From Psychromonas sp. MME1 (GTDB taxonomy: Bacteria > Pseudomonadota > Gammaproteobacteria > Enterobacterales > Psychromonadaceae), in NCBI RefSeq assembly GCF_041080865.1, contig NZ_CP160906.1, forward strand, positions 1,488,001 to 1,552,000: a DNA stretch of 64,000 nt. Direction: 5' to 3'. Position numbers and translations under genes: made by a program. Below are positions 23,982 through 29,630 of this stretch, piece by piece (within the stretch, counting starts at the first letter, position 1; each line of letters begins with the position of its first letter). Under the pieces are notes generated by a model. That model did not search any database. It worked only from the letters and a program-made list of their open reading frames with translations, and was not told where the DNA came from.

Positions 23982-24665
23982 TTAACTAACCTTCTGATAG
24001 TAAATCGGCACATGATAACAGATTACCTCAACCCCACTCTGCCTTGCCTGTTCAAATAATAGCGCATATTTTGCATCAATATGGTTAGCTGCGCTAACGG
24101 CGCGAATACCAGTATGCAATATCGCAAAAAGTAAAACGGCACGGCAACCAGCCGCTTTCATCTGCATCAATTCGCGCAAATGCTTTTGCCCCCTGATTGA
24201 AACAGCATCGGGGAAAAAACCTTGCCCTGAGCCAAATGACTCATCAAGCAGCGTACAACTTTTCACTTCAACATAACAATCGCGCCGCCCTGCTGCTGTC
24301 AGCAAAAAATCGATGCGACTGTTCTCACTACCATATTTCACCTCGGCCTTGATATTTTCGTAATCAAGTAGTTCGGGAATTTTTTGTGCCGCAAGTGCAT
24401 CGGCAACAAACTGGTTTGCCCGTTGCGAATGAATACAGATCCAATGTCCTGCTTTGCTGTGGGTTAGCTCCCACGTATATTTATATTTACGCTTAGGATT
24501 ATCCGATGCGCTAAAATAAACTGTATCCCCAGCGTCTGCGCAATGGGTCATCGCCCCGGTATTGGGGCAATAAATCGTGATCGTTTCACCGCTCTCAAGC
24601 AACACATCCGCCAAAAAACGTTTATAGCGTTTTAATAACGTCGCTTTCTGTAAATGAGTAAACAT
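23982..24665 (-). CDS. sfsA: SfsA family DNA/RNA nuclease-fold protein
   Basis: This is the 'sugar fermentation stimulation' family, with a putative PD-(D/E)XK nuclease-like fold; its biochemical role is unsettled. Family blocks are clear: [17 protein letters not shown] at the start, [33 protein letters not shown] and [20 protein letters not shown]. The frame extends upstream to 24701, but only through a TTG, and that part is junk from a toxin remnant. The ATG at 24665 gives 227 residues, close to the 234 of the Escherichia coli protein, and matches its N-terminus. An alternative ATG lies at 24677. Confidence 0.9.
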
Positions 24666-24685
24666 GGGGTTATCCATTAAATGTA

Positions 24686-24863
24686 CTACAAAATTTGGCA
24701 ACCAATCATCAAGAGATCAAGTGCAATAAATTTAGCTGTAGTTTCTAGTTTATCTAATGCCAAAGGTGACCAAACTACTTTCAAGATTTAATACTCTTTA
24801 AAACTCGCGCGTGAGCATCTGATTTACTATAAGGAGCAGCAATGACCGATTGGGCTTGTCCAA
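24686..24863 (-). pseudogene. Remnant of an antitoxin-ParE toxin pair (integron cassette fragment)
   Basis: On the minus strand, directly after the attC-like boundary at 24864, an open frame reads GQAQSVIAAPYSKSDAHA through RVLKSIKS and a stop, like an antitoxin tail. The next frame starts TTG at 24784 and reads KVVWSPLALDKLETTAKF then IALD, the N-terminus of ParE/RelE-type toxins. After that residue it diverges (LLMIGCQIL) and stops at 24686, just before sfsA. Only about 24 of the expected 90-100 toxin residues remain. The identification rests on a short match, so it is tentative. Confidence 0.55.
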
Positions 24864-24913
24864 CACCCGAATAAGGTGTCGGCTGCGCGACACCTACACT
24901 TGTTTGTTATAGC
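24858..24913 (-). other. attC-like integron recombination site downstream of higA
   Basis: This 56-bp palindromic stretch lies immediately after the higA stop. Read on the minus strand it opens with GCTATAAC, has an inner perfect stem GGTGTCG / CGACACC around a short spacer, and closes with GTTGGAC, which fits the integron core GTTRRRY. Size and layout fit an attC site. The opening core is less canonical than the closing one. Confidence 0.65.
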
Positions 24914-25221
24914 TCTGCTATGTGCGTGATAGTTTCTGGATGACGTTGCACTAATTTCAAAAGAGTAATGGCTTGCCCATTTGGAGAACTGCGCCCTTGC
25001 TCCCAGTTTTCTAAAGTCCGAGAAGATGTATGAAGCAAACGAGCAAACACACCACGTGACATATTAAATTTCTCTCGAATATGTACTATTTCACTAGGTG
25101 AGATAGCAAGCTCACTTTAATCATTAACCTGATGTGTTTTAAGGGTAATCTTCCCCTCAGAATGCTCTTTTGCCTCAACAAGAGCTGAGCTTAATTCTGT
25201 AAATAAATCACGATTATTCAT
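24907..25221 (-). pseudogene. higA: HigA-2-type antitoxin, interrupted by an in-frame TAA
   Basis: From the ATG at 25221 the frame reads MNNRDLFTELSSALVEAKEH and on to ...HQVND, then a TAA (25117-25119, codon 35), then SELAISPSEIVHIREKFN in the same frame to the stop at 24907. The whole is 104 codons, the same length as the Vibrio cholerae HigA-2 antitoxin as I recall it, and the text is closely similar throughout. The helix-turn-helix part (FNMSRGVFARLLHTSSRTLENWEQG) is intact after the stop. TTA to TAA is the likely change. Its ATG overlaps the end of the toxin gene by 8 bp. The HTH part could in principle be re-initiated, but I see no strong start. Confidence 0.8.
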
Positions 25222-25423
25222 TACGCCAGACCTCCATAAAAGCCTTTAACTGTTTCTTTTGATCTGCGGTTAAATCTGACATTTCACTTTTCCCATAAAT
25301 GGTGAGTAAATAAAAACGTCGCTTTTCATCAAGGAAGTAATAAATAACACGTGAACCACCACGCTTTCCTTTCCCCTTACTTGCAACTCGAATCTTCCGC
25401 AAACTAAAATCGGGGACATCCAA
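25214..25423 (-). pseudogene. higB: HigB-2-type RelE-family toxin, N-terminus lost
   Basis: The frame contains LRKIRVASKGKGKRGGSRVI, then YYFLDEKRRFYLLTIYGKSE through MEVWRNE, nearly identical to the last 60 or so residues of Vibrio cholerae HigB-2, a ribosome-dependent mRNase. The first ~45 residues of that protein (MKSVFVEST-type start) are missing. Their place is taken by attC-derived sequence giving MDVPDFS. The homology starts right after the G of a GTT at 25404, the cut point of an attC-like site. The remaining fragment lacks the N-terminal helices and is unlikely to be active, consistent with the partner antitoxin carrying a stop. Confidence 0.8.
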
Positions 25424-25482
25424 ATGTTTTATTGATTTACATCAATCAAAAGATTTGGATGTCCTCAATTGGTGTTATGAGC
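25398..25482 (-). other. attC-like site downstream of avcD
   Basis: On the minus strand this 85-bp site opens with GCTCATAAC (overlapping the avcD stop), contains a long hairpin at 25414-25464 (arms GGACATCCAAAT / ATTTGGATGTCC with a second nearly complementary inner stem and extra unpaired bases), and ends GTTTGCG. The opening core is the exact reverse complement of the GTTATGAGC that starts the avcD cassette. The closing GTT is followed by higB coding sequence and not by a canonical GTTRRRY, so this end looks like recombination at a secondary site. Confidence 0.7.
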
Positions 25483-27217
25483 CCTTTAGGTAATTTAGTT
25501 CATCTTTATATGATATTGTAGGTTCATATAATTGGTGGTATCCCTTACCTACAGCCCCTCTAAATTGAATTAAATTCGGTTTATTACTACCAATGGATAG
25601 GATGTGATCGATTGCAATTCCCGGGTATGGATTGATATACACAATATCTTTAATTCCTAATTGATATGCTTTTTTAGCACACAACTCACAAGGGCTAGCT
25701 GTAGTAAATAGTTTACCCCCTTCAATACCTGCAGTACCATATTTGGCTAACTGCAGAAAAGCATTTTCCTCAGCATGTAACGATCTGGTGTGCACTTGAT
25801 TACCAGAGTCATCTAAAGAATTCTTAATGTCTTTAAAACAGTATGATAGATTTTTACCCTGAGTTCCCTCTTGACCTGATATTTTTATATATTCACCTTT
25901 AGCAGCATTTCTAAACTCTTTATTATGCCTTTCATAAACACTATAAGTAATTTCATCGAAGTCATTAGCTAATCCATTTAGCGACCTCAAATTACATGGT
26001 ACTTGCCCTTTTGCTACATCATTCCAACCAACAGACTTTATAGAATAATTTTCATCAGTAACAACTGCACCAACTTGGCGAGAAACACAACCTGAGTTAA
26101 CTTTTGCTGTATAAGCAATTTGCATAACGCGCTCAAGATTTGTTGGAGATATTAACCCAGGATGTTTTATTAATGCTAAATACCAAGCTAACTGCGCTTT
26201 TAATACATTGTTATTATCAAGTTCATTCCTAGGATTGAATATATGAACATCAGATATCTCGATACACCTTTTAACATTTTGACTTATAAAATCAGCATCC
26301 TCTATTTTAGTTTTCCCTGATTCTCTTAGTTCTAGTTCATCAAATTCATCTACTGTATATTTATGTTCATTTTGTAAATACGCCTTACGATCTTCATTTG
26401 GAGCATTTATTGATATTAAATAAAAAGCTGAATAACGATCTTTAAAGAACTTTGCTTCAAAAGGGTTTCGAATTGCGTCAATTACAATGAAAGCTCCATT
26501 AGACTTTATGTGCCTAATATTTTTTATGCATCTATTTATTGTTTCAGGCAAATGGAATACTGACTCTGGTTCGAACGGAGCATCTTTAAAAGCTGATTGA
26601 ACACTTCCTGTTCTACGAATAGAATTTCCTGCTGCTTGGTAAACCTTTATATAAAGTTCATTATGGAGTTCTCTTAACTCTTTTTTGAAATCTTCGGTGA
26701 ATTTTCTGATCAATTTCATATACGAGAAGAATTTTGTTTTTTCTCGCTCAGTCAACTCTAAGTTCTCAGTATGATTTAATATTTTATTCGATATTGACTT
26801 TAAAATACCCTTTTTAGTAAAACTCGAATGGAAGCAGCCTTTCCTTATTACGTCGTCTATTTTGTTTTTACTGACATCACAGGTTTGCTCTTTGATAAAA
26901 TCAGATGCTTGAGTAGCAGAGAGAGTTAATATGTATGCAGAGATTAAATCACTAACTTTAATTGAAATGAAAGAACTGTAATTCTCAGTAATGTAATGAG
27001 ATGCAATTTTGTATCTTTTTGAGTCTAAATTAGAAAAAAAGGGTTTATTCCCGTACTTCACATCTTCAACTTGTGGAAAGTTTGCTGTTTCATTTTCTAG
27101 GATGTTTGCTGCTGTAGTACAGCCTGAACCTGTTCTTCCGGTCAACCCTATTACAATAAATTTACTGCGCTCATGAAACAGGCTAGAAATCATTGCATTG
27201 TTTTTTGTTTTAGACAA
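25475..27217 (-). CDS. avcD: Antiphage dCTP/dCMP deaminase (AvcD-type), P-loop plus deaminase
   Basis: This 580-residue protein has two modules. Near the N-terminus is a P-loop-like GLTGRTGSGCTT (residues 24-35), with a Cys where Walker A usually has Lys, and DAIRNPFEAKFF at about 248-259. The C-terminal third is a zinc cytidine-deaminase fold, with HAEEN at 481-485 and PCELC at 509-513. This pairing is typical of AvcD/antiphage dCTP deaminases, which drain dCTP/dCMP during phage infection. All catalytic residues are present and the frame is intact, so it is probably active. It starts at a TTG with GGAG 7 nt upstream. In Vibrio, AvcD is restrained by a small RNA (AvcI) from the leader; here the cassette leader before the start is only about 40 bp. 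It sits in its own integron cassette (25404-27256) and is AT-rich relative to its neighbours. Confidence 0.88.
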   Translation of the reverse strand: MSKTKNNAMISSLFHERSKFIVIGLTGRTGSGCTTAANILENETANFPQVEDVKYGNKPFFSNLDSKRYKIASHYITENYSSFISIKVSDLISAYILTLSATQASDFIKEQTCDVSKNKIDDVIRKGCFHSSFTKKGILKSISNKILNHTENLELTEREKTKFFSYMKLIRKFTEDFKKELRELHNELYIKVYQAAGNSIRRTGSVQSAFKDAPFEPESVFHLPETINRCIKNIRHIKSNGAFIVIDAIRNPFEAKFFKDRYSAFYLISINAPNEDRKAYLQNEHKYTVDEFDELELRESGKTKIEDADFISQNVKRCIEISDVHIFNPRNELDNNNVLKAQLAWYLALIKHPGLISPTNLERVMQIAYTAKVNSGCVSRQVGAVVTDENYSIKSVGWNDVAKGQVPCNLRSLNGLANDFDEITYSVYERHNKEFRNAAKGEYIKISGQEGTQGKNLSYCFKDIKNSLDDSGNQVHTRSLHAEENAFLQLAKYGTAGIEGGKLFTTASPCELCAKKAYQLGIKDIVYINPYPGIAIDHILSIGSNKPNLIQFRGAVGKGYHQLYEPTISYKDELNYLKGS

Positions 27218-27248
27218 TTGTTAACTCCATAAATATGTAAATGCTTGG

Positions 27249-27309
27249 GCTCATAACGCTTAAATTTGGGGCGCCGCTTGCGGCGTCCCTAAGATTTACT
27301 TGTTAGAGC
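27249..27309 (-). other. attC site between the coiled-coil gene and avcD
   Basis: On the minus strand the 61-bp site runs from GCTCTAAC to GTTATGAGC with a central hairpin GGGACGCCGC / GCGGCGCCCC and outer AAGTAAATCTTA and AAATTTAAGCG arms. The upstream gene's stop codon lies inside it, which is usual for cassette genes. GCTCTAAC is the exact reverse complement of the cassette's own leading GTTAGAGC (27801-27808). This is the clearest of the three attC sites. The hairpin could also act as a transcription stop. Confidence 0.85.
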
Positions 27310-27784
27310 TTGCTTGAATTTTTGCGAGCCTCTTTTGCCCTCTTGGACTTAACCCAATTATATTCCCACCCGCTAGAGGCCGCCCATATGACACAAACCC
27401 TTTCTCTTGTAGTTCGGTAATGCCACTTTGAGTACGTATTATTGACACCCCTGCATCTTTAAGAAGATCTTTCTCAAAAACATTTATGGCATCTCTAGAG
27501 AGAAATACTTTTAAGACATAGTCGGCTTCCTCGCTAAGGTCGATATCATCACTGGGGAACATCCCACGCACCACGCTATTCTCGCTAGCTAGATCGTCCT
27601 TAACCTTCTTCAGCGCCGAAACCTCATCTTGTAGAAGCTGATTGCTTTCTTTCAGAGCATCGTTGTTTGTTTTTAGCTGCTTTATATTTTCTTCTTGAAG
27701 ATCGTAAGCATGCTTTAGCAAATCGAAATGCGCTACGTCTAGAACCCTACCTTTCAAATCTACCAGTATTTTAGATATATCCAT
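27296..27784 (-). CDS. Integron-cassette protein of unknown function, coiled coil plus winged-helix-like domain
   Basis: I do not recognise this 162-residue protein. Residues about 25-70 (LQEENIKQLKTNNDALKESN and onward) form a strong heptad coiled coil. The C-terminal half (about 88-158) looks like a winged-helix fold: an INVFEKDLLKDAGVS helix, a SGITELQEKGFV helix and a VSYGRPLAGGNIIGLSPRGQ wing. A DNA- or RNA-binding dimer is possible but unproven. It is soluble, with no signal peptide. It fills one cassette (27257-27807) directly before the avcD cassette in the same direction, so the two are likely transcribed together. No functional link to avcD is shown by sequence alone. Confidence 0.75.
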   Translation of the reverse strand: MDISKILVDLKGRVLDVAHFDLLKHAYDLQEENIKQLKTNNDALKESNQLLQDEVSALKKVKDDLASENSVVRGMFPSDDIDLSEEADYVLKVFLSRDAINVFEKDLLKDAGVSIIRTQSGITELQEKGFVSYGRPLAGGNIIGLSPRGQKRLAKIQASSNK

Positions 27785-27800
27785 TTTTAATTCCGATTGA

Positions 27801-27832
27801 GCTCTAACGAGGCTGTAGAATTTCTCATTTTC
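27801..27832 (-). other. Integron cassette junction with partial hairpin, left edge of cassette array
   Basis: GCTCTAAC on the plus strand (GTTAGAGC on the minus) at 27801-27808 marks the start of the coiled-coil cassette and matches the first core of its attC. An AGGCTG / CAGCCT inverted pair lies just beyond (27809-27832), as an attC or attI arm might, but no second core was found. The rest up to ppiC (27833-28065) is AT-rich and non-coding; it holds GAGGACATCCACATC at 27965-27979, resembling an arm of the avcD attC. No integrase gene is in the window. Confidence 0.5.
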
Positions 27833-28065
27833 AGCCTGATTATTCTAAATAAAAAACACAATAATTCATAATTTATTGATATTCAATTAAATATTCTGTT
27901 TTTAATAACTGACTGATTAAATTGAGTGATATATCGCTGAATTGGCTTAATTACGATAATGATCGAGGACATCCACATCTTTTTTAATAAAATGGCAAAA
28001 AGCGAGATCTGATAATCATATCTTCAGCCCCGACAAGTTGCGTTTAGCGTTACCTTAGCTCGCCA

Positions 28066-28344
28066 TCAGGTGCGATACAGCACTTTCACGATATGCCAGC
28101 CAAATTTTGTTTTTACTAGCTGAGGGGTTAAAATTTCACCAGTGAAAGCGACTTTATCAAACTGCGGCACCATTTGCCCTTTTTTAAATTCACCTAAATC
28201 GCCGCCCTTTTTGCCCGATGGGCAGGTGGAATATTTTTTCGCTAAGGTTTGAAATTTTGCCCCTTTCTTTAACTGTGCAAGAATATCATCGGCTTGCTCT
28301 TTATGTTTGACCAATATGTGTAATGCAGCGGCTGTGCGAGCCAT
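28066..28344 (-). CDS. ppiC: Parvulin-type peptidyl-prolyl isomerase
   Basis: This is a cytoplasmic single-domain parvulin that speeds cis-trans isomerisation at proline bonds. The 92-residue protein is close to Escherichia coli Ppi[21 protein letters not shown] at the start, [20 protein letters not shown] in the middle and [12 protein letters not shown] at the end. The start at 28344 is favoured over an upstream ATG because GAGGTG precedes it at normal distance and it matches the family N-terminus. It ends the accessory integron stretch and marks return to core genes. Confidence 0.95.
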
Positions 28345-28468
28345 AATCACCTCAATAAAATTAAAAAATAGCATTGTAACACAGGATGCGAATCCATTAA
28401 TAATCTCGTCAATTGCTAAACACTGATTTCTAACCAGGTAGAGTTCATGGGAAATTATATTATAAATT

Positions 28469-29565: not shown

Positions 29566-29630
29566 CATTTCATCAAGCATCGAATATATCTCTTTTTTGA
29601 CTTCGACAATGGAAACGCCTTAGCGATAGG

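Follow-up and report, generated by a model that had tools for sequence, protein, structure and literature searches.

The window analysed here is a 64-kb stretch of DNA (C1:1488001-1552000) within a 3.59-Mb single-contig genome. It contained an insert bracketed by two housekeeping genes, sfsA (23982-24701) and ppiC (28066-28374). The genes of the insert were found on the minus strand: orf162, followed by a deaminase of 580 aa, a fragment of a RelE-type toxin and the tail part of a broken antitoxin (Table 1). Both outer ends of the insert were relics of insertion sequences (IS), one from the IS91 family on the sfsA side and one IS1182-like on the ppiC side. The original prediction had described a decayed integron cassette array with an antiphage deaminase, and this reading was upheld. 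A search of the 64-kb window against Rfam revealed no family at or above the gathering score, promoter-like matches numbered 10 versus 12.1 expected by chance, and no attI or intI remnant was noticed at ppiC-sfsA. Additionally, a short reading frame beside sfsA (24689-24784, minus strand) gave the impression of the start of a ParE-like protein; Pfam returned no match for it at E <= 0.1.

Table 1. Features of the insert and related loci. Positions are those of the window unless a comparison locus (L) is given.
Feature	Position	Strand	Remarks
Ori-end relic of IS91-family element	24822..24905	-	91% over 24822-24911 to the end of a 2.30-kb element, L177
R'' stub GCTATAAC of toxin-antitoxin cassette	24906..24913	-	adjoins the IS91-family end
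NadS/MqsA-type HTH antitoxin tail	24907..25062	-	weak matches below cut-off
RelE-type toxin fragment, 5' part missing	25214..25423	-	Pfam RelE, covering 44-98 of the 120 profile positions
REP-like hairpin	25408..25470	.	inverted repeat; occupies the place of the rest of the deaminase attC
R'' stub of the lost attC of the deaminase cassette	25474..25484	-	complement (11/11) of the leading core within attC1
Antiphage dCTP deaminase, 580 aa	25475..27217	-	no internal stop; curated model, PADLOC, Pfam
attC1, sole complete attC	27249..27309	-	core boxes, stem, bulged T and G on L'' arm
orf162, orphan cassette gene, 162 aa	27296..27784	-	hypothetical protein matches only
Leading core GTTAGAGC of orf162 cassette	27801..27808	-	exact complement of attC1 R'' box
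IS1182-like relic, 145 bp	27809..27953	+	144/145 identical to the end of a 1846-bp copy, L009:14108-15953
Cassettes between both IS types	L009:13782-14107; L014:14188-16905; L177:8189-9045; window 24906-27808		
127-bp MITE copies	L011:19106-19232; L011:19657-19783; L013:2221-2347		C1 about 74-77 kb

The insert was expected to lie outside the core gene order, and the comparison with relatives bore this out: none of its genes was present in the 17 same-genus sfsA loci compared with their flanks (L016-L032, some of them cut by contig ends). ppiC lay within the flank in three of these 17 loci, and in one of the three the ppiC-sfsA spacing, read by eye, was 12 nt. The ppiC-sfsA interval is variable within the genus. 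In the other two relatives (L016:1041-1500 and L018:1031-1500), a different small gene was read by eye between ppiC and sfsA.

attC1 joined the orphan 162-aa cassette to the dCTP deaminase cassette and, read on the minus strand, ran as GCTCTAAC...GTTATGAGC. The R'' and R' boxes, the stem and the extrahelical bases by which an attC is recognised were all found at this site. Without its last base (27249-27308), it folded at -13.1 kcal/mol on the plus (recombinogenic) strand, with a z-score of -3.29 (3 of 200 shuffles as good) and with T and G each bulged out as a single base on the L'' arm; the minus-strand fold of the same bases gave a z-score of -2.03 (12 of 200 shuffles as good). Extrahelical G and T bases on the L'' arm, including the position of the bulges, are a canonical attC feature. 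A plain core scan (GTTRRRY) misses attC1, the core of which is GTTATGA, and the closest other sequence match in the genus had an E-value of 0.131. Having no sequence relative in the genus, attC1 therefore does not derive from the attC families found here; for the same reason, and because attC loops vary, we used a constrained-fold scan with random GTT sites for comparison. Among the 1730 AAC..GTT pairs with a span of 50-130 in the whole 64-kb window, attC1 ranked fourth by constrained fold energy per base, after hairpins at 29610 and 8612 and the REP-like hairpin, and it fell outside the top 15 by raw energy. Fold energy alone is unspecific for attC, and it is the boxes, bulges and gene limits that are jointly specific.

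The exact core complementarity claimed for two cassettes was confirmed. In particular, GTTATGAGCCC at 25474-25484 was the exact complement of GGGCTCATAAC at 27247-27257 (11/11), and GTTAGAGC at 27302-27309 was the exact complement of GCTCTAAC at 27801-27808 (8/8 core letters), so that the leading core was complementary to the cassette's own R'' for both the deaminase and orf162. Repeats of this length were unremarkable as such (20 inverted pairs in 3.6 kb), and their position at the gene ends was decisive; the stops of the cassette genes lay inside or adjoining core boxes, again as predicted. Three attC sites had been proposed, of which attC1 stood as the one complete site and the other two proved to be only R'' stubs.

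The deaminase scored 445.3 bits against NF041025 (cut-off 400) and matched the PADLOC dCTPase model (1.8e-147) and Pfam dCMP_cyt_deam_1; the attC of its own cassette was reduced to the R'' stub. The closest deaminase found was that of Oceanimonas baumannii (84% aa), and the DNA similarity to Oceanimonas, 76% over 1728 bp from 27211 to 25485, ended at the R'' stub (25484-25474). The O. baumannii gene is a non-cassette homologue with no attC beside its stop; two attC candidates returned by the scanner at that locus were at least 0.9 kb away, within other reading frames. The deaminase was rare: a threshold of E <= 1e-60 gave matches in 5 of the 394 genomes of the order, own genome counted, and its relatives on seven plasmid records each showed less than 60% identity. 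orf162 had matches in 2 of these 394 genomes, own genome again counted, and 36-57% identical hypothetical proteins on three plasmid records; no curated family matched it above cut-off.

The third cassette was broken. An in-frame stop, read by eye, divided the antitoxin tail from its upstream part, and the toxin was truncated at its 5' end. The predicted cargo of toxin-antitoxin and defence genes held for the intact-looking deaminase, with the toxin-antitoxin pair present but broken. Exact copies of the REP-like motif GAGGACATCCANATC numbered 11 across the genome, of which two fall in this region, and its reversed control had 0. We also observed GAGGACATCCA motifs of the REP-like kind at 25408-25470 and 27962-27983 of the window and at L009:10293-12101, which recur across the genome. 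Some copies lay near repeated transposase-like reading frames, which we take to resemble REP-associated transposases.

The left boundary, 24858-24913, had been predicted to be an attC, and this assignment was abandoned: inward of AAACAAG, the sequence belongs to the end of an IS91-family element, which lies beside an R'' stub. The 62 bases 24860-24921 matched 12 places in the own genome, itself counted, and 14 of 24 genus genomes. Across 32 unique copies, with 2 exceptions, the identity continued beyond GTTGGAC and ended at TAAC on the other side. The same recurrence as an IS91-family end also caused us to drop the idea that this repeat represents a short type of attC in the genus. By constrained fold, the site ranked 31 of 1730, and only an 8-bp inner stem folded; an intact ori end and its target box together form an attC-like hairpin with a bulge, of which the window copy retains the inner stem only. 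Additionally, the Proteus terrae plasmid NZ_CP073357.1 (L283:5001-5054) contained 54 bp that matched the IS91-like end at 90.7%, with the remainder of the element missing. This stretch lay 27 bases from a toxin-antitoxin pair, and such a match was also present in Providencia rettgeri NZ_CP123252.1.

The IS-end counts for both element types drew on all loci gathered by terminal repeat, the window's IS91-like end, transposase, integrase and other reasons; the integrase-gathered loci among them lie in or near integrons and thereby favour attC context. Some loci hold duplicated IS copies, and "unique" therefore refers to the flanking sequence; copy numbers are lower bounds, as scoring was confined to the best 3-5 candidates of each genome and no more than 30 loci were taken. 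The full IS91-like element was 2.30 kb long and began with CTTGTTGAACG. Many copies of its end sat behind an IS91-family transposase, which was itself preceded by a 295-aa XerC/D/IntI-like recombinase. The transposase of a full-length copy scored 338.4 bits (cut-off 125) with the domains Zn_Tnp_IS91 and Y2_Tnp, whereas the window has the end only. GTTA was abutted by 47 of 49 unique ori ends, and the base after GTTA was T or G in 46 of these 49, compared with 46% at random GTTA sites. At a threshold of -0.10 per base, an attC-like stem was found at 27 of 39 unique ter ends and at 203 of 1500 random GTT sites; at the stricter -0.15 per base, the numbers were 14 of 39 and 19 of 1500. Among 15 full-length copies, which include within-genome duplicates, 11 had both an attC body and GTTA in one constant orientation, one had the attC body only and three had GTTA only. 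The preference was present in several other genera, and, as judged from these sequence comparisons, the IS91-like element favours attC.

The IS1182-like relic was flush with the leading core of the orf162 cassette. The transposase of this group scored 265 bits against a curated cut-off of 270 and contained DDE_Tnp_1_6. GTT or AAC was abutted by 91 of 95 unique ends (neither in 4): GTT lay beside 39 of them, in 31 cases as GGCGTT, and AAC beside 52, in 50 cases as TAAC. Of 38 GTT-side ends, 18 were attC-like at the threshold of -0.15 per base, compared with 24 of 1500 random sites. Complete copies had the arrangement GTT-IS-GTTA, which is a 3-bp core duplication; the copy at L245 had GTT and no obvious attC. 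The preference recurred in other genera, and the flanking sequences indicate that the IS1182-like group favours cassette sites. In the resident integron, a 127-bp MITE with IS1182-like ends occupied three of the attC sites, each time with GTT on both flanks. A near-identical flank ending in GCTGTT was seen at two IS1182-like copies, near 943 of L001 (C1 about 1300.9 kb) and near 1369 of L250 (C1 about 761.5 kb). One of these copies adjoins intI, and the flank is possibly an attI-like sequence that is present twice.

The prediction of no integrase in view applied to the 64-kb window and failed for the genome, in which two intI genes were found above the curated cut-off (405.6 and 404.4 bits versus 265). 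These genes lay 0.21 and 1.44 Mb from the insert; integrase matches numbered 15 genome-wide and 0 in the window. The intI at 68 kb stands at the head of an array, of which five attC-like sites lie in L011 and one more in L013. An IS1182-like copy is located about 0.5 kb from the intI at 1301 kb, with one cassette and then an IS91-like end next in line. Four loci of the own genome, including the window, were alike in that an IS1182-like end and an IS91-like end enclosed one to three cassettes, with the order unchanged (Table 1). In two single-cassette loci of this kind, the leading core and R'' matched over 11 nt.

We consider it very probable that the insert is the relic of a chromosomal integron cassette array that was cut by two insertion sequences favouring cassette sites. 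This reading is based on the fold and bulges of attC1, the core complements, the stop of the deaminase homology, the absence of the insert from relatives, the IS relics and the site preferences of the two elements. It is weakened by the lack of a genus relative of attC1, by a fold energy that is not singular, by IS copies without attC and by the lack of a noticed attI or intI remnant at ppiC-sfsA. From attC1, the cassette limits, both IS relics, both site preferences and the truncations, all of which are evident in the sequence, we infer a probable course of events. An integron integrase would have assembled at least three cassettes, namely orf162, the antiphage dCTP deaminase and the RelE-type toxin-antitoxin pair. 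The IS1182-like element may then have entered the GTT core ahead of orf162, duplicating GTT, and the IS91-family element (XerC/D/IntI-like recombinase plus Y2_Tnp, HUH-type) may have entered the R'' box behind the toxin-antitoxin cassette, beside GTTA. Most of both elements would have been lost afterwards, and the REP-like hairpin would have taken the place of the deaminase attC and the 5' part of the toxin. Because a single complete attC is left and no pair of sites flanks either cassette, excision by IntI should fail. attC1 may still be able to take up cassettes. The deaminase gene is uninterrupted; its product, if made, is predicted to deplete dCTP/dCMP in phage infection.

Chance does not readily account for the core-like boxes. 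Inverted repeats as long as these are common, and of the three proposed sites one was not an attC, as would be expected if the boxes merely lay near unrelated genes without any integron; in attC1, however, the box, stem and bulges co-occur, the complementarity falls at the gene limits of two cassettes, the deaminase homology stops at a box and each outer box adjoins an element with a preference for boxes of this kind. An origin without any integron is therefore hardly credible. A different route, in which IntI acting in trans inserted the cassettes directly at attG and the IS elements came later, so that an integrase-headed array never existed here, has a limited but real chance of being correct. 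The intI genes elsewhere in the genome and the absence of the insert from the closest relatives agree with it, and insertion at attG has been reported. Nevertheless, both outer junctions are IS relics, and no cassette-chromosome junction is left to show attG; entry at attG would also be compatible with the later steps of the array-relic reading.

Both IS groups could also need only GTT or GTTA and seem bound to attC through living in integrons. The three full-length IS91-like copies that have GTTA without an attC body, as well as the IS1182-like copy at L245, are in line with this. We nevertheless regard such an explanation as improbable, given the base preference after GTTA, the excess of attC-like stems at IS91-like ter ends over random GTT sites, the GGCGTT at most GTT-side IS1182-like ends and the constant orientation of the IS91-like element relative to attC in the 11 full cases.

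More speculatively, the IS91-like element may be an insertion sequence and an integron cassette at once, movable by IntI and by its own transposase, a proposal that we consider rather unlikely. The element starts with CTTGTTGAAC and would thereby return a core box to the attC body that it entered, and its far end, which carries the matching core, folds beside the R'' box of the target into a hairpin that resembles attC and has a bulged base. If true, an inserted element would behave as a cassette with a usable att site on either side, and its moves would carry and strand cassettes and so seed integrase-less arrays.

Integrase-less arrays, toxin-antitoxin cassettes and defence cassettes are already known from the literature. 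CALIN are described there as two or more attC sites with no integron integrase close by. The insert resembles CALIN and SALIN in that it holds cassettes with attC remains and no intI lies in the 64-kb window. In contrast to the predicted cluster of attC sites, it contains one complete attC and two R'' stubs, which is below the two-site threshold, and the label SALIN therefore fits rather than CALIN; both of its ends are IS relics. The deaminase resembles the anti-phage dCTP deaminases and AvcD of AvcID, as it exceeds the cut-off of NF041025. However, it is the cargo of an integron cassette with a predicted activity. AvcID has an adjacent AvcI RNA; here 39 nt separate the leading core from the deaminase start, leaving little room for an AvcI-like RNA inside the cassette. 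A review (PMC12409362) describes defence cassettes of chromosomal and mobile integrons as size-reduced. The likeness to these is an antiphage gene inside an integron cassette, but the deaminase is full length at 580 aa and, against the size-reduced picture in that review, suggests that a full-length antiphage enzyme is able to travel as a cassette.

Integrase-less cassette clusters are common, and the IS remnants at both ends of this array suggest how cassette arrays become stranded: two unrelated transposase types (Y2_Tnp and DDE) may provide a route to cut, cap and strand them. IS ends could serve as a marker of former array ends overlooked by attC searches, and they also cause false attC calls, such as the left site at 24858-24913. 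In PMC9229058, ISShvi3 is described as an IS91-like element beside attC in Shewanella, and no IS interrupting attC sites is reported there. ISShvi3 is a single case, whereas the elements described here take up this position repeatedly, in many copies and several genera. Within the open-access PMC literature surveyed, no systematic preference for attC was found for this IS91 group, the IS1182-like group or its MITE. Insertion sequences of the IS1111-attC group, which are of the DEDD (IS110) type, are known to target attC. Our Pfam results gave Y2_Tnp and DDE_Tnp domains instead of a DEDD transposase; in contrast to IS1111-attC, the elements here are of the IS91 and IS1182 types and use other insertion points. 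The type of array is itself known; what is new is the preference of both IS groups for their sites, a variation on the behaviour of IS1111-attC.
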